This document shows, piece after piece, positions 27,353 through 45,087 of a stretch of DNA of 64,000 nucleotides. The DNA lies in the IMG/VR virus record IMGVR_UViG_3300026382_000002, positions 64,001 to 128,000 of that record; one strand, given 5' to 3'. Origin of the DNA: a virus. How positions within the stretch are numbered: the first letter of the stretch is position 1; each line of letters opens with the position of its first letter. A model generated the notes under the pieces. That model had not been told where the DNA came from, made no database searches, and saw only the letters and a list, made by a program, of their open reading frames with translations. The position numbers and the translations under genes are program-made.

Positions 27353-27407
27353 CTTGTTTTACAAAAGAAAAAACTCAATACAGTTGGGGAAAGGATAGAG
27401 GAAAGGA

Positions 27408-27480
27408 CCCACGGGTAGGACTCGAACCTACGAAATGCGTGAAAAGGACGCATCCACTTAACCAGCTCTGGCACCGTGGG
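27408..27480 (-). tRNA. tRNA with unusual anticodon loop (possibly Lys UUU)
   Basis: Seven-pair acceptor CCCACGG/CCGTGGG and a good T arm (GTAGG TTCGAGT CCTAC). The anticodon stem is TGCGT/ACGCA with loop CCTTTTC, which places UUU at 34-36 but gives C33 instead of the near-universal U33 and U37 instead of a purine. The D stem is only CCA/TGG. No encoded CCA. It may be decayed or have a non-standard role. Confidence 0.55.
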
Positions 27481-27539
27481 AAAGCGGGAGCCAGCGAATC
27501 CGCAACCCCCGCAGACACTACACAACCACATCATCAGGC

Positions 27540-27613
27540 CCGTCGAGACGGGAGTTGAACCCGCAACCTGCCGATTAAAAATCGGATGCTCTACCTTTTT
27601 GAGCTACTCGACG
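27540..27613 (-). tRNA. tRNA-Lys(UUU)
   Basis: Acceptor CGTCGAG/CTCGACG with G73, D stem GCTC/GAGC, T arm GCGGG TTCAACT CCCGT, anticodon loop TTTTTAA reading UUU. The outer anticodon-stem pair is mismatched. CCA is not encoded. Confidence 0.8.
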
Positions 27614-27620
27614 GATATGG

Positions 27621-27704
27621 TGGAGCGAGGTAGACTCGAACTACCATTCCCGTTAGGGACACGGATTTACAGTCCGCTGCCTTACCAATTCGGCGCATCG
27701 CTCC
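27621..27704 (-). tRNA. tRNA-Tyr(GUA)
   Basis: Acceptor GGAGCGA/TCGCTCC with A73, anticodon loop CTGTAAA on a GCGGA/TCCGT stem (outer pair G-T), long class II variable arm, and T loop TTCGAGT. All features fit bacterial tRNA-Tyr. Confidence 0.85.
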
Positions 27705-27705
27705 A

Positions 27706-27781
27706 TGGCTGGGCGGGCAGGACTCGAACCTACGAATGCCAGAGTCAAAGTCTGGTGCCTTACCAACTTGGCGACCGCCCA
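27706..27781 (-). tRNA. tRNA-Gln(UUG)
   Basis: Acceptor TGGGCGG/CCGCCCA, G73 and an encoded CCA; anticodon stem CCAGA/TCTGG with loop CTTTGAC reading UUG; T arm GTAGG TTCGAGT CCTGC. Confidence 0.85.
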
Positions 27782-27786
27782 ATAAA

Positions 27787-27877
27787 TGGCAGAGGGTGTG
27801 GGATTCGAACCCACGGAACGTTCATCACGTCCAACGGTTTTCAAGACCGTCGCCTTCAACCACTCGGCCAACCCTCT
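27787..27877 (-). tRNA. tRNA-Ser(UGA)
   Basis: Acceptor AGAGGGT/ACCCTCT, G73 and encoded CCA; anticodon stem ACGGT/ACCGT with loop CTTGAAA reading UGA; long variable arm and a Ser-type D arm (GCCGAGTGGTTGAAGGC). Confidence 0.85.
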
Positions 27878-27884
27878 ATTTCGG

Positions 27885-28002
27885 TAACGGCGGGAAGAAT
27901 CGAACTCCCCTGTTCTTGATAAGCCCAAATTCAATAGCGCTTTTACCTAGGATATTGCACGCCTTCGAACTTACCAATACTCCATTACCAACCAGGGCCG
28001 TC
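27885..28002 (-). tRNA. Oversized tRNA-like element, identity unresolved
   Basis: Has an acceptor-like pairing GACGGCC/CGCCGTT (one mismatch), A73 and a T arm (GGGAG TTCGATT CTTCC), but spans about 118 bases. I cannot place a normal anticodon arm. The extra central sequence contains a TATTG/CAATA stem enclosing a second TTCGAA, and an AAGC/GCTT stem with loop containing TTGAA. It is either a degenerate or insertion-bearing tRNA or a tRNA mimic. Confidence 0.4.
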
Positions 28003-28006
28003 ATAA

Positions 28007-28094
28007 TGGCGGTAGAGGTAGGATTCGAACCTACGGAGGCGTTACCCTCGACCGGTTAGCAACCGGCTGCCTTCAACCACTCGACCACTCTACC
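28007..28094 (-). tRNA. tRNA-Ser(GCU)
   Basis: Acceptor GGTAGAG/CTCTACC, G73 and encoded CCA; anticodon stem GCCGG/CCGGT (outer pair G-T) with loop TTGCTAA reading GCU; long variable arm; T loop TTCGAAT. It is the first gene after the strong cluster promoter. The D arm closely matches the other Ser tRNA. Confidence 0.85.
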
Positions 28095-28155: not shown

Positions 28156-28184
28156 ATTATACGATATTACGCACACAATGTCAA
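28156..28184 (-). promoter_or_regulatory. Perfect sigma-70 promoter for the tRNA cluster
   Basis: Minus strand has TTGACA (28179-28184), exactly 17 bases, and TATAAT (28156-28161), about 60 bases before the first tRNA. It is the only perfect two-box promoter noticed in the window. The surrounding 150 bases contain no gene. Confidence 0.75.
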
Positions 28185-28245: not shown

Positions 28246-28278
28246 AAAAAAAAGAGAGAAGTTATTCGACCCCTCTCC
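28246..28278 (-). terminator. Intrinsic terminator of the giant RNA
   Basis: Minus strand GGAGAG, a 14-base loop, CTCTC(T) and eight T, ending in TTAG. A strong intrinsic terminator form that fixes the 3' end of the RNA. Confidence 0.7.
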
Positions 28279-29310
28279 TTTTTTATTTTTTCACAGGCAG
28301 AAAGATAAACCCACCTTGATGGATTTATTTTTCTGCCCCAACTTGACTTACATAGGTGCGCTACTCCTATGCAGTATCAAGCTGAGACGCCCTGGTTCTT
28401 TTCTTATTTTACATCGGAAGAACTTAGGGTCATAAGAATCCGATGAGCAGACTATTTCATTCAGAGGCCGTCTGTTAGGGCTCTGGAATTTTATGCATTC
28501 CTACAATCAGTTCTCTAAGGTGGAACTGATAAGTCCCCCGGCTTTATTCCCGGCGTCAACCCTGTTCCCTTTGAGCCTGCTAAGGCAGGCACCGGACCTG
28601 TTACCAGTCCTGGGCAAGCATCTAGGAAGACATCTGTTTATCCTTTGTAGGTCGGGTGTCACCGCACAAAGGCAGATACCTTCCGCAACCCGCATTTTAT
28701 CGTCTCGGGTCTGACTATCCTGTGTGCGTGAGGCTCGCTTAATGGTCCACAGGCAGACCATAGCGCAGAAAAGCCTCTTACAAAATTCACTTAATGAACT
28801 TTATAAGAAGCTTTTATTGCTTACACAGGAAACCCTGTGCAAGGGACTGATTACTAGTCAGCCCAAGGCGCATTGCGGCTACCATAGAGTTGCCTCTATG
28901 GCGTGCGCCAAACCCCTCTTGGTCGCTCTTAGAGATGAGAACTTACTCCCCGCGACTCTACGAGAACCGTAGTTACTAGCTACGGCGTCTCATCTCCTCA
29001 GGTGCCCCCGCAATCCGTCTTACGACGGCGGAAACGATTGCTAGGCACCCTCTTTCATCACCTGACTCCCTCCAGGTTTCCGCTGTGTGCAGGCTTTCAC
29101 AGCCCTTCCTGCACCTCTCCGCTCTGCACCTGTTAACGAGCTAGTGCGGAGCCTGCCCGACTGGTCTCTCCCAGTTGTCGTTGGATAAGGAGCCCGCTGT
29201 CGCTCTCCTTATCCCTCCGTGCTCATTACGAGACTCGGCCGCTTACCATTACTGGCGCATAGACACCTCACGTACGGATGGGGTCAGTTTAGAGACATGA
29301 CCCAGGTCTT
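28246..29310 (-). ncRNA. Giant structured RNA, GOLLD/ROOL-like
   Basis: A region of about 1.06 kb with roughly balanced base composition inside AT-rich DNA and no credible protein gene. On the minus strand it starts after GATATAAT and ends at a hairpin plus T8. It is packed with hairpins: GGATAAGGAG/CTCCTTATCC (29183-29214), CCATAGAG-GCAA-CTCTATGG and CCGTC-GTAA-GACGG with GNRA loops, CACAGG-GTTT-CCTGTG, GCCTGC-CTTA-GCAGGC, CATAGG/CCTATG and a 3' hairpin at 28296-28337. Size, ornate folding and position next to phage tRNAs match the GOLLD and ROOL giant RNAs, which assemble into RNA multimers. I cannot tell whether it belongs to one of those families or is a new one. Confidence 0.75.
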
Positions 29311-29311
29311 T

Positions 29312-29335
29312 TTGGAATTATATCAAAAGCATCTG
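29312..29335 (-). promoter_or_regulatory. Promoter of the giant RNA
   Basis: Minus strand CTTTTGATATAATTCC, with TATAAT at 29317-29322, directly downstream of the Csx3-like stop codon. Predicted start near 29310. No good -35; extended -10 style. Confidence 0.6.
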
Positions 29336-29339
29336 ACAA

Positions 29340-29591
29340 TTAATGCCAGATTACTTTTACGTATTTGTTTTCTTTTGGGTCAAACATAGATACTGATTTT
29401 GTAATATGTGCCAACTCATGACCAAGTGCTAATGCCATCGGCACAGTTAACCTCCCATTAATTTTCACTTCTTTACCATATAACTTCTCTTTATTATTTC
29501 TAACCCAACTAATTGCTTGCTCTACAAGTTCTTCGTTAGTTTTCCCCTGTGGTAATTCTGTATAAAGAATGTTGTCTTCTAATCTAAACAT
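29340..29591 (-). CDS. Csx3-like ring nuclease, candidate anti-type III CRISPR protein
   Basis: The 83-residue protein aligns by eye with Csx3: a GxxVxINGR strand near residue 45 (Csx3: GVVISGR), a helix ending in ALGHELAH (Csx3: FLAHKYHH), then MFDPKEN (Csx3: VYDPRLG) and a final KVIWH (Csx3: VVQSH). The conserved His and Asp positions are kept, while the residue after DP is Lys rather than Arg. Csx3 degrades cyclic tetra-adenylate, the alarm signal of type III CRISPR systems. In a phage this would switch off that defence. HELAH also resembles an HExxH protease site, but length and flanks favour Csx3. It sits under a TTATATATA promoter with a hairpin leader. Confidence 0.65.
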   Translation of the reverse strand: MFRLEDNILYTELPQGKTNEELVEQAISWVRNNKEKLYGKEVKINGRLTVPMALALGHELAHITKSVSMFDPKENKYVKVIWH

Positions 29592-29625: not shown

Positions 29626-29647
29626 AGAACCCACCGCGGTGGGCTCT
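29626..29647 (-). promoter_or_regulatory. Leader hairpin of the Csx3-like gene
   Basis: Near-perfect palindrome AGAGCCCACC/GGTGGGTTCT in the 5' leader, followed by TAGAGGAA and the AAAAAGGAGTACGAG ribosome site. The same position and flanks hold a related hairpin before the 204-residue gene. Confidence 0.55.
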
Positions 29648-29673
29648 ATAAAGAAAACTGAAGTTCTCTTTCT

Positions 29674-29689
29674 GCTTATATATAACACC
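29674..29689 (-). promoter_or_regulatory. TTATATATAA promoter of the Csx3-like gene
   Basis: Minus strand GGTGTTATATATAAGC, nearly identical to the element at 30571-30583 (GTGTTATATATAAG). Both lie upstream of structured leaders. Probably a -10-like element; polymerase specificity unknown. Confidence 0.5.
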
Positions 29690-29724
29690 ATTTTGCGATT
29701 TTTTTCGTGGTGATATATATAAGC
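29674..29724. repeat. Inverted repeat carrying a promoter motif on both arms
   Basis: Arms GCTTATATATAACACC (29674-29689) and GGTGATATATATAAGC (29709-29724) are complementary apart from one mismatch, separated by 19 T-rich bases. Each arm carries a TATATATAAGC element, pointing in opposite directions. Could be an operator, a two-way promoter or a cruciform. Confidence 0.6.
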
Positions 29725-29751
29725 AAAAAAGAGCAGTTTTTAGTCTTGCTC
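29725..29751 (-). terminator. Terminator after the 204-aa gene
   Basis: Minus strand GAGCA, an 11-base loop, TGCTC and six T. It insulates the 204-residue gene from the Csx3-like gene, so the two have separate transcripts. Confidence 0.6.
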
Positions 29752-29780: not shown

Positions 29781-30395
29781 TCAATCCTTTAGGACTTTCC
29801 ATCCATCTGGCCAACGCCAGATATAGTAGGTCACACTGCTCACAGTCCCAGGACTTGGGTGCGTATGGAACACCCATGGTTTTCCTGAATATTTTAGATT
29901 GAATTCACAATCTTCTGGGTGGTTTCTTGTGCCGCAATTCCAGCTCACTGTACACATTCCACCCTCTGATTTACATTCAATATGCGGGTCCCAACCTCCT
30001 GTAACTAAGAGGTCAGGTTCTACGCTCTCTTGCTCGCATGGGTACTTAATGGGTTCAGACGTACCATCATTGTTGTCTTTCACCCATTCTTGGTGTATTT
30101 TTTTTGATACCCACGCAATGTCTATGGTGTCTTGTCCTGCTACAGACATGAAACCATAGAAATTATAATTTTTTCCTAAAAACTCTTGAAAATTTGGCGT
30201 ATAGTTGTGGATATTCCATTTACCATTTTCCACGTCCATTTTTACTTTTTCATACCATCTTAGCGCTTCTTCAGCGCTATTGGCTCTTTTATAAAACACC
30301 ATATAGTCATACAAACCACCACTCCTAGATGTTACCTCTAGGATAGCTATATATAATTTTCCGTTTGTTCTTGAATTAGTAGTTTCTAATAACAT
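29781..30395 (-). CDS. Hypothetical accessory protein, 204 aa
   Basis: Not recognised. The first half is alpha/beta (TNGKLYIAILEVTSR, EEALRWYEKVKMDVENG). The second half has clustered Cys and His (CKSEGGMC, WNCGTRNHPEDC) and ends PWVFHTHPSPGTVSS and a Trp-rich tail. HTHP recalls a JAMM metal site, but the usual Ser-x-x-Asp does not follow. The gene looks less AT-rich than its neighbours, hinting at separate acquisition. Own promoter, structured leader and terminator beside a Csx3-like gene make a counter-defence role plausible. Confidence 0.5.
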   Translation of the reverse strand: MLLETTNSRTNGKLYIAILEVTSRSGGLYDYMVFYKRANSAEEALRWYEKVKMDVENGKWNIHNYTPNFQEFLGKNYNFYGFMSVAGQDTIDIAWVSKKIHQEWVKDNNDGTSEPIKYPCEQESVEPDLLVTGGWDPHIECKSEGGMCTVSWNCGTRNHPEDCEFNLKYSGKPWVFHTHPSPGTVSSVTYYIWRWPDGWKVLKD

Positions 30396-30424: not shown

Positions 30425-30565
30425 CCTCTAAGAACCCACCTTGATGGACTCTATAGAGGAAGCTCCGTTGGGCATCAGGGTGGAGCAACCCTGCCTGTGG
30501 CTCTACCTCCTTAGAGGGCTATTGATTTACCCCTTTCGGGCACCACAGGTCGCAATAGTCCTCAT
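30425..30565 (-). promoter_or_regulatory. Structured mRNA leader with predicted pseudoknot
   Basis: On the minus strand CTATTG (30553-30558) pairs with CAATAG (30519-30524) and encloses CCTGTGG (30543-30549) and a CCC-GAAA-GGG hairpin (30531-30540). CCTGTGG then pairs outside with CCACAGG (30494-30500), giving an H-type pseudoknot. A CTCTA/TAGAG hairpin lies between. Two more follow: CAGGGT/ACCCTG and a CCTCTA/TAGAGG-capped hairpin at 30425-30460. It could be a metabolite- or protein-sensing leader or a stability element for the 204-residue gene. Confidence 0.6.
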
Positions 30566-41400: not shown

Positions 41401-43260
41401 TTTACTCAATGTTTTCTTAGCTCTATCTAGCCCTTCTTGTAAAATAGCATTTTGTTTTGCTGCGTTTGTTGCAAAAAACATATGAGCCAATCCCGAATGC
41501 GGAGCAACATCCAGAGCTTTTGCATAATCTCCATTGGACAAGGCATTTAAGAACAATTTATCTTCAGGTCCCAAGTTGTTTAACTTCACCCCTTTTTCTT
41601 TTAATTTCTTACCTAATTCCCTAGCTTCATTCTTCATTACATTAGCGTCTGGGTTTAACACCCCTTCTATGAAACCGTCCCCGAGATGCGAAAGAACGCT
41701 TTTAGAAACTTTTCCCTCATTTCCTTCCATTAAGTTTCTGCTAAATTTCTTATACACCCCACCTGAATGCAATTGTCCTTTTATGTATAAATTTTGTAAA
41801 ACATGTGCTATTGCAGGAGAGGCGACAGATTCTGCGCTTGATTGTTTAACCAATCTTTTTTTATTGACATAGTCTTGAGCTGTTATCATTGTATCAACCG
41901 GAGAAGCGGTTATCCCGTTACCAACAATACCTGCGGATAACAGAGTCGAACCTATGGCAGCCACTTTAGCGTCTTTGTCATACTTAAACTTTTCAGCTTT
42001 TCTAATAGCTTCTTCTTTCCCTTTCTCAATAGATTCTAAAAATTCATTTCTTTTTTTTGAACTCAATACATCTTCATCTTTCATATCTTTAAATATGTCT
42101 TTTTCTTTTTTCAATTTATCTAGTGATTCTATATTTTTACCACCTTTAATTGCGCTCCCTATACTCTTAAACATAGGTCTTAGAACAGGCCTATACATTC
42201 CTCCTAACATTGCAGCTCCACCTGCTACCTCTATTATTTTTGCTGCAGTGTTTATTTTATCATTTGTTTCAGGGTCTTTTATAAGTCCCGGGTTATATGG
42301 ATTTATTTTTTTTGACGCAAGCTGATAGGCACCAACTAGAGCCAATGGAACTGAACCCCACTTAAGTGTAGAGGAATGTGTCTTAAAGAAATTTGCCGGA
42401 TTCATACCTATTTGAGAAGCAAATATACGAGCTTTATCAGCGCTTTCTTGCAATTTTACATTTATATTATTCAACTCTTTTCTAAGTTTCACCGCATCAT
42501 AACCTTTAGCGCTTTCTAATTTTTCATATATTTTTTCTTTCTCTTTTTGTAAAGCGTTCACATCTGCTAAATGTTTTTTATACATAGATTCTTTTTTACT
42601 ATAACTTTCATTTAGCTTATCGCCCAATTTATCTGCTCCTATTCCGGCTATATACATTGCAGCTGCAGTTGCAGGAACAAAAGAGCTTTTATTTTCAGCT
42701 GTATATTGTTTGAGAGTGTCCATTTCTTTGTCTGTTATATCACCATCAGAGCTTTGTTTAATTAGATTTTTTAAATATTCTTTTTGTTTTTTTTGTTGAT
42801 ATGCGTAGCTTAAACCTGAACCTAGTATTGAAGCAACCCCTACCCCTATGGCTGCATTTCTTTTTTTTGTAGCATCTCTTATAATATTGTCTATTTTCTG
42901 TAATTCTTGTTGTCTTGCTATTTCTGCCTCTGCTTTTAGCGCATCCAGAAACTCAGGCTTAGTTTTGCCTGGTAAAAACTTTGTGGCATAATTGTATTTA
43001 CCAGCTTCTTTTAAATAATGTTTTTTTTCATCTTCATTCGAAGCCATTATAGCTTTATCTAACGCTTTCAATTTTTTATTTTCAAAATATGTTTTATCAC
43101 TTGTATGTTCGATTTTTCTTCTTATAGATGGATACATTTCTGTTTTTAGATGATTCACTCCAGCTACAGCACCAGAGGCAAGCGCTAAAACTGCGAAGGG
43201 CGAAGAAACTTCGGTTGGAGAAATAGGTGGTTTATTATTCTCTTTTCTTTCTTTAGCCAT
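38410..43260 (-). CDS. Giant multi-site protein, candidate precursor of internal or ejected virion proteins
   Basis: About 1616 residues, Lys-rich and helical, with no recognised enzyme domain. Four spaced copies of the processing-like signature occur: LIKQSSDGD near residue 167, LVKQSSAES near 470, LGKTASDDN near 968 and LLKKQSSDDD near 1359. Each lies next to small-residue hydrophobic helices (GVGVASILGSGLSYAY, ALGALAGGITGGIFG, IGAGFGAVAGYSFG, AGLVGTGAGVGSFLG; also GGLAGTALGGAAAYL near the end). Cutting would release about five parts, each with a glycine-zipper helix. ATG 43260 has AAGG at good spacing; GTG 43266 does not. Role in genome ejection or membrane passage is inference. Confidence 0.55.
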   Translation of the reverse strand: MAKERKENNKPPISPTEVSSPFAVLALASGAVAGVNHLKTEMYPSIRRKIEHTSDKTYFENKKLKALDKAIMASNEDEKKHYLKEAGKYNYATKFLPGKTKPEFLDALKAEAEIARQQELQKIDNIIRDATKKRNAAIGVGVASILGSGLSYAYQQKKQKEYLKNLIKQSSDGDITDKEMDTLKQYTAENKSSFVPATAAAMYIAGIGADKLGDKLNESYSKKESMYKKHLADVNALQKEKEKIYEKLESAKGYDAVKLRKELNNINVKLQESADKARIFASQIGMNPANFFKTHSSTLKWGSVPLALVGAYQLASKKINPYNPGLIKDPETNDKINTAAKIIEVAGGAAMLGGMYRPVLRPMFKSIGSAIKGGKNIESLDKLKKEKDIFKDMKDEDVLSSKKRNEFLESIEKGKEEAIRKAEKFKYDKDAKVAAIGSTLLSAGIVGNGITASPVDTMITAQDYVNKKRLVKQSSAESVASPAIAHVLQNLYIKGQLHSGGVYKKFSRNLMEGNEGKVSKSVLSHLGDGFIEGVLNPDANVMKNEARELGKKLKEKGVKLNNLGPEDKLFLNALSNGDYAKALDVAPHSGLAHMFFATNAAKQNAILQEGLDRAKKTLSKKDWDKISEAYKDTVMHQLSKTLNGKNPDKYSPPRKTGFLTDTYNKAFGYLGREREKGSTIGKVYDFLGKDVDDVLHLKKKTLPVEEAKKLEEKGRLPAAGLVGMVEPALAAWNIGKPMISKTNLAEKYTGLDAAQHFARGLLNDDITKVNTKTYLSDAASDYLLSPSLGMVNRMAYDEGKINHEMLKRGLTKNKLKKVIGNDTVTEYARNPWAADRNRQVKKTKQELGLENLEKRLKTFDKGLLHDYAETGKHIMGDAMKTKSIDPDKVADELAVPINKTLDKVIDKGTKELGTKDFNETEKISEVGKKYNDIISDWGAPGTVAVGLGLVSPAAYADYKQYKKKRQKHLGKTASDDNHSNGGMALGALAGGITGGIFGKLDNEKEVEKARALLGKFELLKDSDPVEAKEIFDRLKKDKTFSKIKDMPAVKKIENAINSHYNEVMHNIRKSPEAQKLREYEKQIDKFMVKDPQPEGPFKSLIIRPVMEAASYIKSRGKKNVHKELPKNLHEIKQAKKELEQKIIDRNIQIKKKLNKSFKEGELYKAHLDAQKSLGEYIKPAEGKIVGKSLAGAAAGATLAYMADKAYDKLSKIHKDGDPRNKEHYNISPYVGTGIIAGGALGLLGNRFKTKVIKDFADRTIDNDFVNPIAKIESIKNAGMFTDLENAVNAAAEESAKYTHKRKASYDKIKRALDVDTSAFNTKKAKDMFIGAGFGAVAGYSFGNNHNIRKKNEISTTNMLLKKQSSDDDYKKTDAMIYAGLVGTGAGVGSFLGHKAGKIKKAKLYPAFENIKQTSNMYVKDGEGYKHFKDFKAEYDTPQIVDSLRESLKKFKAGKNTMSKQDLNKREPILKQYKTLQNKIYDAEEKYLPREKQLTELQKLYKELAKHKESGNESEYRKVMEEIENIRAPKDKNEYSKIEQALNDFMKAKEELRNSDVVNKYKHVDFKLLHQVHRKVPEIEKELKSIPMKGAIKGGLAGTALGGAAAYLTYKDLNSNN

Positions 43261-43277
43261 AATCACAAACCTTTTTT

Positions 43278-43345
43278 ATGTAATTATAGCTAAAAAAAGA
43301 GAGGAATCGAGGAATTATTGTTTATTTATAGAAGTTCTCTCTCTC
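43278..43345 (-). promoter_or_regulatory. Overlapping terminator and promoter before the giant multi-site gene
   Basis: Minus strand AGAGAG, a long loop and CTCTCT followed by seven T form a terminator for the upstream small genes. The same T-run leads directly into AGCTATAATTAC (TATAAT at 43283-43288). One tract thus serves as terminator tail and promoter upstream element. About 145 bases here hold no gene. Confidence 0.5.
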
Positions 43346-43411
43346 GTTTTAATGTGTAGTCCATCTGTCTTTTTTATACCTTTAGCACCTATCTTACATC
43401 TTTTCTATTTT

Positions 43412-43630
43412 TTATCTTGAGGCTACATAACCAGTGGCACCAAGACCTAACCCAAGACCTCCCCATCTTACACCATTCAATACTCTTTGCATTGAAAATT
43501 CAGGTTTAGCAGGCCCTGTGTTTCTGTTTTTTCTAATAAAATCTTCGACTTCAGAAGCAGTAACCCTACCTCCTCTTACTACTCTAGGCATAGCTGCCGA
43601 TTCTTTGTATAGTAAACTTAATGCTTTCAT
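43412..43630 (-). CDS. Small internal virion protein candidate with MKAL tag
   Basis: Begins MKALSLLYKESAAMPRVV: tag with KES in place of KxA. A basic linker follows, then a C-terminal Gly-rich helix (GGLGLGLGATGYVAS). Tag, linker and zipper helix repeat those of the 119-residue neighbour, with which it is nearly contiguous. Confidence 0.6.
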   Translation of the reverse strand: MKALSLLYKESAAMPRVVRGGRVTASEVEDFIRKNRNTGPAKPEFSMQRVLNGVRWGGLGLGLGATGYVASR

Positions 43631-43631
43631 G

Positions 43632-43991
43632 TTACCCCTTTAATAATGATTTTCCAAGACCAAATGCATTACTCAGAAAGCTTCCACTTCCTGATATTAC
43701 TTTACCAACTCTTCCCATTCCATTAAGAACGCCATGCAACGAGGTTGCATTCTGTACTTTGCCAAGCCCTGAATTAATCTTGTTTGCCATTTGCAGTTGT
43801 CCTGCATCAGTAATTTTACCACTATTTATCGCATTGGTCAATTTATTGTGTAAGAATTTACTTCCATAATGTGTACCAGCCACCATTGTTCCTAATGCTG
43901 CGCCAGATAATACTCCGTTTTTAATTGCAGAGCCTGGACCTTGTTGCTCTTCATATATATCTGCAATTTTAAGCAATTTTAACGCTTTCAT
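43632..43991 (-). CDS. Small internal virion protein candidate with MKAL tag
   Basis: Begins MKALKLLKIADIYEEQ, the clearest form of the tag. The remainder is Gly/Ala/Asn-rich with low charge (NGVLSGAALGTMVAGTHYG near residues 25-43, then GRVGKVISGSGSFLSNAFG), suggesting a membrane-active or pore-like segment. Unknown family. Confidence 0.6.
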   Translation of the reverse strand: MKALKLLKIADIYEEQQGPGSAIKNGVLSGAALGTMVAGTHYGSKFLHNKLTNAINSGKITDAGQLQMANKINSGLGKVQNATSLHGVLNGMGRVGKVISGSGSFLSNAFGLGKSLLKG

Positions 43992-44000
43992 TTACACTCC

Positions 44001-44447
44001 TTATATATCTTCCATTACTGGATGTGGATTTATATCATCTAAAGTTTTTTTTGCACCATACACTCCTATTGTTGTCCCCAAAATCCCCAAAGCACCATAT
44101 CTTCTTGCTTTAACTATTGGTTTATACTCATCTTTTAGCACTGTTTTTAAAGCGGAACCATCAAACGCTTTATACTTTTTCGCTAAATCTTTTAATTTTT
44201 CACTCATTTCTCCTGTTTCTTTGTAAGAAACTATATCCTTTAATCTTTGCTTATATTCTCTGGCTTTTTTTGAATATTCCTTAGTAGAATCTCTTGTCTG
44301 TTTATATTTTTTTGCTCCGTATAGTCCCGAGGCAGCACCTCCGGAAAACATCAAAAAATCTCTTTCCAAATGCTTATTGTTATCCGTATTTGTATCATTC
44401 ATAGAATCATCCATGGGTAGATATTGTTGAGAAATTTTATAAAGCAT
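44001..44447 (-). CDS. Internal virion protein candidate with LYKIS tag
   Basis: I place the start at 44447, giving MLYKISQQYLPMDDS, because GAGG lies nine bases upstream and the resulting N-terminus fits the tag. The longer frame from 44477 has no such site. A Gly-rich segment (FLMFSGGAASGLYGAKK) follows near residue 35 and another near 125 (ALGILGTTIGVYGAKK). Basic and helical between them. It overlaps the next upstream gene by about ten bases. Confidence 0.55.
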   Translation of the reverse strand: MLYKISQQYLPMDDSMNDTNTDNNKHLERDFLMFSGGAASGLYGAKKYKQTRDSTKEYSKKAREYKQRLKDIVSYKETGEMSEKLKDLAKKYKAFDGSALKTVLKDEYKPIVKARRYGALGILGTTIGVYGAKKTLDDINPHPVMEDI

Positions 44448-44682
44448 CTTTTTGGTCCTCACATATTTTTTTTGCAACCCTTATTGCTCTTTCATAGGTT
44501 TCAGTCTCTTGCACTAATTCAGTCAATGATTCTTTGTGGTGGACTATTATAACATAATACTTATTTTTAATAATTTTTTTCTTTGTGTAGACACTAAACA
44601 TATTACCATTTCTTGTTGAAGAACATATGCAACGAGGAAAGATATTTAATATACTTCTAATGCATCGTATTACTTCTTTCAT
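44437..44682 (-). CDS. Hypothetical protein, up to 81 aa
   Basis: Not recognised. Basic N-terminal half with four Cys (CIRSILNIFPRCICSS) and a beta-alpha C-terminal half (KYYVIIVHHKES then ERAIRVAKKICEDQ) resembling other small early genes further right. Marks the boundary between the virion-type and small-gene regions. Promoter TATAAT lies about 20 bases upstream. Confidence 0.45.
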   Translation of the reverse strand: MKEVIRCIRSILNIFPRCICSSTRNGNMFSVYTKKKIIKNKYYVIIVHHKESLTELVQETETYERAIRVAKKICEDQKDAL

Positions 44683-44697
44683 TTTTAAACCTTTTTC

Positions 44698-44742
44698 ATT
44701 AATTATATTAAAAACATAACCTAAAAAAAAAGAGGGGGAGGA
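44698..44742 (-). promoter_or_regulatory. Terminator then promoter at the boundary of the two gene regions
   Basis: Minus strand: an AGAGG/CCTCT stem spanning the end of the 45-kb gene, then nine T and AGG, and after that GTTTTTAATATAATTAATG with TATAAT at 44702-44707. Same terminator-then-promoter order as at 43.3 kb. Confidence 0.5.
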
Positions 44743-45087
44743 CTAACATTTTGCCTTTTCCTCTTCCCATATCTCCTTTGTTTCTTGTGGAATACGCATT
44801 GCGTCTTTTATTACTTGGGCAGGCGTATACTCTGGATACCCTATATACTTTTTAAACGGATACAAGGCAGCTGAGTATATAATTAACCCCGCACTCAAAA
44901 TACACGCTATTATTGCCACCACTACAACCTCAATTGCTATCAATATACAACACCCTTTTCTCCCTATAATCTTACCAAATTTACTCATAACACATTCCTT
45001 TTTTATATAAATATTTGCATTCACCCTTGCCTTGTTGCCATTTTTTTCAACATTTACTTCAACATTGACTTTTTTGTTTCTCTTCAT
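44743..45087 (-). CDS. Small membrane protein
   Basis: Start taken at 45087 (MKRNKKVNVEVNVEKNG), with AAGGA six bases upstream. An internal ATG at 44988 (MSKFGKIIGRKG) also has a good AGGAATG site and could give an 81-residue form. One strong hydrophobic helix (CCILIAIEVVVVAIIACIL with its continuation), then a cytoplasmic- or periplasm-type tail containing YPEYTPAQVIKDAMRIP. Unknown role. Confidence 0.5.
   Translation of the reverse strand: MKRNKKVNVEVNVEKNGNKARVNANIYIKKECVMSKFGKIIGRKGCCILIAIEVVVVAIIACILSAGLIIYSAALYPFKKYIGYPEYTPAQVIKDAMRIPQETKEIWEEEKAKC

Follow-up and report, generated by a model that had tools for sequence, protein, structure and literature searches.

What kind of genetic element is a stretch of roughly 1 kb that lies beside the tRNA genes of an AT-rich phage, has a balanced base composition, and contains only short reading frames? 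The question is raised by positions 28246 to 29310 of a 64,000-nt window, comprising bases 64001–128000 of the 161,461-base virus record IMGVR_UViG_3300026382_000002 (GC content, 32%). A first-pass annotation, made from the letters of the window, read this stretch as a giant ornate RNA that is either a divergent GOLLD/ROOL-like RNA or a new class.

A predicted transcription unit upstream of six tRNAs

The locus stands apart from its surroundings in composition. Its best 1-kb segment has a GC content of 0.505 (about 50%), versus 0.322 ± 0.026 (maximum, 0.395) for 1-kb segments of the 161-kb record outside the RNA/tRNA block, which agrees with the earlier description of balanced composition in AT-rich DNA; the bases at 28246–29310 are purine-rich (A,.27; C,.22; G,.285; T,.225). 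Composition, fold, and the comparison of two copies delimit a putative noncoding RNA of about 1,064 nt (28246–29310, minus strand), which bears out the coordinates first given to within a base or two and supplies the strand, which had not been named.

On the minus strand, the order in the direction of transcription is TGATATAAT, the RNA body, a terminator, a perfect sigma-70 promoter, and six tRNAs. The TGATATAAT element (29317–29325) is a perfect match to an extended −10 promoter, from which a transcription start near 29310 is predicted; it has no recognizable −35 and, for want of a good one, is missing from a consensus promoter scan, so that the promoter claimed by the first-pass annotation is present but weaker than implied. 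At the opposite end, the intrinsic terminator that had also been noted (28246–28283, minus strand) consists of a 15-bp hairpin at 28283–28248 and a T run to 28246. Judged by these signals, the locus is most likely an RNA gene of ~1.06 kb with its own promoter and terminator, and it is most likely read from the minus strand.

Downstream, and on the same strand as originally observed, lies the array of six tRNAs (27405–28094; Ser(GCT), Ser(TGA), Gln, Tyr, Lys, and Lys), with a separate and perfect promoter, TTGACA-17-TATAAT, at 28156–28184 (minus strand). Because a terminator and a perfect promoter intervene, the RNA and the tRNA array appear to be transcribed as two neighboring units. A position directly upstream of tRNAs on the same strand would also suit a tRNA operon with a long leader, or the relic of an intron or ribozyme, but the intervening terminator and promoter argue against this, as do the retention of the fold (see below) and the lack of a match to any intron or ribozyme model of Rfam in either copy, with a tool that finds introns elsewhere; we regard this explanation as very improbable and favor an RNA transcribed in its own right.

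Within the array, between the two tRNA-Ser genes, is a tRNA-like element of 118 nt (27885–28002, minus strand) with an acceptor-like GACGGC/GCCGTT pairing, a T-arm loop of TTCGATT, and a long, odd middle. ARAGORN did not call this element, with or without introns, and its sequence is identical in the second phage described next.

A near-identical copy in another phage

A 15-base seed scan of IMG/VR led to L045, record G004 (IMGVR_UViG_3300026484_000402; 80,340 bases), which holds a second copy of the RNA at L045:6204–7265, with 97.7% identity over 1,064 nt. Homology starts at window position 29309, one base off the predicted transcription start, and the 631 nt beyond the RNA, with the tRNAs, are identical in the two phages. 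Matching proteins of G004 and the window phage are mostly 26 to 70% identical and differ in order; divergent, reordered proteins next to a near-identical RNA and tRNAs point to a cassette exchanged between phages, which suggests joint movement of RNA and tRNAs. The two phages also occur together, since the sample that gave G004 also yielded a 34-kb fragment with complete identity to the window's phage. Both G004 contig ends (the start of L066 and the end of L045) are identical to the window's phage record, suggesting assembly breaks at sequence common to co-occurring phages.

The copies part at the 5′ flank, which holds an 83-amino-acid (aa) open reading frame (ORF) in the window and ~180 nt of folded sequence, preceded by a promoter-like ATATATATGAAGCAG, in G004. 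All differences within the RNA fall in its first ~740 nt; its 3′ part, being identical, was either recently exchanged or joined by the assembler at shared sequence. An assembly artefact, or functionless DNA that is GC-rich by chance, might be suspected given that the G004 record stops within the tRNA block that both phages have and that the 3′ parts are identical, as at an assembly-graph junction. The RNA is nevertheless present in two assemblies with 22 ordered, structure-sparing differences, which makes an artefact or chance origin scarcely credible and a genuine, structured RNA the preferred reading.

Substitutions spare the fold and not the reading frames

The RNA bodies differ by 22 substitutions, 18 of them transitions. 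When the real changes (24, two of which lie just 5′ of the RNA body) were imposed on one minimum free energy (MFE) structure of the window copy, its energy was −426 kcal/mol, versus −406 ± 6.6 kcal/mol under random placement (P = 0.0007), a result that reflects the 5′ two thirds of the RNA because the copies differ only there; on the plus strand, the same test gave P = 0.03. Broken minus-strand pairs numbered 5 versus an expected 8.9 (P = 0.035). Covariation is minimal because the known copies are two and near-identical (~98% alike), and it comes down to one pair of a pseudoknot that was itself proposed by eye.

The inner ORFs have at most 84 codons. Between copies, all 8 codon changes in two of these ORFs, taken together, are nonsynonymous, with 0 synonymous (in part the same substitutions, because the two ORFs overlap on opposite strands), and a third contains a frameshifting indel in G004, all of which accords with the initial view that the locus lacks a protein gene. 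A long, noncoding sequence whose fold is kept under selection, here across two copies, has the makings of a giant structured phage RNA, and we conclude with high confidence that positions 28246–29310 specify a structured noncoding RNA.

Predicted structure

The minus-strand MFE is −435 kcal/mol, versus −348 ± 9.9 kcal/mol in dinucleotide shuffles (z = −8.8); the excess stability is greater than on the plus strand (z = −7.1), and z is −10.8 for the longer relative. These z-scores alone are no proof of a functional fold, since part of the stability comes from the terminator and from a 20-bp, AT-rich hairpin (28771–28813, minus strand; two pair-preserving changes between copies); the comparison with the second copy is the stronger argument. 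At a probability of >0.7, 204 base pairs are common to both copies and include the GNRA loops GUAA and GCAA/GCGA, in line with the dense hairpins and GNRA loops that had been noticed at first.

From 5′ to 3′ along the minus strand, several elements can be proposed. A candidate H-type pseudoknot at 29281–29309, recognized by eye, combines AGAC/GTCT with GGGTCA/TGACCC, and its pair 29302:29282 is G-C in the window and A-U, compensated, in G004. A middle domain (28881–29077) has helices with GNRA loops: GUAA at 29023–29020, and a tetraloop at 28893–28890 that is GCAA in the window and GCGA in G004, with GNRA kept. The same domain contains a heptaloop, CUAGUAA, at 28979–28973; a second CUAGUAA heptaloop (28851–28857) reads CUAGCAA in G004, keeping the palindromic CUAG, which makes it a candidate kissing loop, albeit in a hairpin outside the >0.7 core. 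A 3′ domain spans 28485–28684 and forms the basis of one covariance model (R2). The GNRA loops, the 5′ pseudoknot, and the two CUAG heptaloops, as modeled, are of the sort that can make the contacts of a compact RNA particle, but they could also have arisen by chance.

Family assignment and searches for further copies

The Rfam search of both copies covered all 4,227 families, at E ≤ 10 and with filters relaxed. Neither the GOLLD (RF02032) nor the ROOL (RF03087) model matched either copy at this threshold; the first-pass annotation had set E below 1e-5 on these models as the level for assignment. In a positive control that covered the ROOL model, the same tool found the ROOL of a Lactobacillus salivarius megaplasmid with 130.4 bits and an E value of 6.4e−28; a search restricted to GOLLD returned only chance scores elsewhere in the records. 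The tRNAs were the only convincing Rfam matches in the two copies, and those to sau-19, STnc400, and the L20 leader were dismissed, with scores far under the gathering thresholds.

A true GOLLD or ROOL so divergent as to lie past the reach of the Rfam models would share the size class, the tRNA-side position, the GNRA loops, and the pseudoknot; with no model match at E ≤ 10 in either copy and a working ROOL control, we judge such membership improbable. The original interpretation therefore divides: a giant ornate RNA beside phage tRNAs stands, the divergent GOLLD/ROOL member finds no support, and the new class fits. By these searches, the RNA is most likely an analogue of GOLLD and ROOL that forms a new giant phage RNA family, not a member of either one.

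At seed or BLAST sensitivity, the IMG/VR, GTDB, phage, and plasmid collections yielded no third copy, and the blastn search for homologues that had been recommended at the outset gave no match at distant sensitivity in the phage and plasmid collections. Five seed patterns run over IMG/VR viral contigs extended into the RNA in the G004 phage alone, and one seed scan of GTDB genome contigs gave 11 matches, none extending. Seed scans require exact matches of 15 to 17 bases and miss most diverged copies, such that the RNA is an orphan at seed sensitivity. Covariance models of two subdomains (R1 and R2) recovered only the two known copies among 24 related phage records. Several candidates were set aside: a 25-nt match in L039, L053, L057, and L058 did not extend; a match near tRNAs in L129 lies within a long open frame that resembles a ribonucleotide reductase; and structured intergenic regions of the relatives G011 and G017 resemble gene leaders or other RNA.

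Neighboring DNA and phage lineage

Upstream of the RNA, the 83-aa ORF (29340–29591, minus strand) ends in GHELAH...FDPKENKY, which is reminiscent of the CRISPR-linked protein Csx3, an identity for which Pfam, PDB, and Foldseek provided no confirmation. Ahead of this gene, positions 29669–29729 hold a 22-nt inverted repeat (91%) with two divergent TATATATAAGCA motifs. A TATATATA-type motif, followed by AAGCAG, AAGTAG, or GAAAGAG, recurs upstream of genes in the window phage (29684, 30579, and 31269, minus strand; the ORF lies between the first of these and the RNA) and in its relatives (L045, just upstream of the RNA; L106, near 1280, 2440, 3240, and 3880, minus strand), and it looks like a phage-specific promoter.

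The phage itself belongs to a poorly known lineage, given that most large proteins tested from the window and the rest of the record have no PHROG or Pfam match at 1e−3 and that its terminase shares no more than about 29% identity with those of deposited phages. A 585-aa protein at L015:3148–4905 (minus strand; record positions 43148–44905), a candidate fragment of an RNA polymerase beta-prime subunit, has sparse relatives at 26 to 77% identity.

The leader of the gene at 30395–29781 contains an exact repeat of TCCATCAAGGTGGGTT, a 16-nt sequence from the 3′ hairpin of the RNA, and the leader of the next gene has a related hairpin with the variant CCCACCGCGGTGGG (sites at 28308–28323, 29629–29642, and 30433–30448, minus strand). 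Such a repeat could be a shared binding site, as would befit a structured RNA that has protein partners or acts on transcripts, as a ribonucleoprotein scaffold, sponge, or regulator, and does not self-assemble; a precedent for a large monomer exists in raiA RNA (PMC12286853). One short shared hairpin is weak evidence for such a role, which we consider unlikely, if less so than membership in GOLLD or ROOL.

Proposed mode of action and comparison with known giant phage RNAs

The reading we prefer, on balance and with some reserve, is that of a structured noncoding RNA with its own promoter, located upstream of tRNAs, which works in the manner of GOLLD and ROOL and belongs to a new family. Transcribed from its promoter to its terminator, apart from the tRNA unit, this minus-strand RNA would, by analogy with GOLLD/ROOL and the RNAs of Kayvirus and ICP1, accumulate in quantity during infection. 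It would fold unaided into a compact particle through GNRA contacts, the 5′ pseudoknot, and self-complementary loops, and this particle may be a homo-oligomer. An analogue of GOLLD and ROOL is, in our estimate, somewhat probable; the homo-oligomer, likewise argued from analogy, is a tentative proposal. More doubtful still is the fullest version, in which the RNA represents a third class that assembles into an RNA-only phage particle, has no sequence relationship to GOLLD or ROOL, and is carried on a mobile RNA-plus-tRNA cassette with a swapped 5′ module. A third giant RNA, at the same genomic place but without sequence matches, would suggest that selection for such RNAs comes from the tRNA arrays of phages themselves, and it could be studied independently by cryo-EM and by deletion.

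GOLLD and ROOL are encoded close to tRNA islands and assemble into RNA-only cages, a homo-14-mer for GOLLD and a homo-octamer for ROOL (PMC12286853); their setting, in a phage and near tRNAs, is that of the RNA at 28246–29310. GOLLD resembles it as a giant structured phage RNA of over 800 nt, often near tRNA islands, and has a less conserved 5′ region (PMC12286853); here, the two phages have different modules on the 5′ flank of the RNA and an identical 3′ part, a pattern that recent exchange or an assembly join explains equally well. The RNA differs from GOLLD in not matching the Rfam model. ROOL, too, is large and structured, has pseudoknots, and occurs in phages near tRNAs (PMC12286853); its model, which scores 6e−28 on a known ROOL, has no match here, and the RNA is about 1.6 times longer than ROOL env-120 (659 nt). 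Phage ICP1 produces an unclassified noncoding RNA of ~800 nt that is its most abundant transcript (PMC7567579), although ICP1 has no tRNAs, and blastn of the phage collection gave no sequence match to this RNA. The lncRNA1 and lncRNA2 of Kayvirus vB_SauM-515A1 are abundant noncoding RNAs beside tRNA genes (PMC7698491); they differ in occupying regions of 525 to 570 nt and, in the same blastn comparison, gave no sequence match. Kayvirus lncRNA2, which accounts for 8.4% of counts, precedes the tRNAs (PMC7698491), and this position ahead of the tRNAs is that of the RNA described here.
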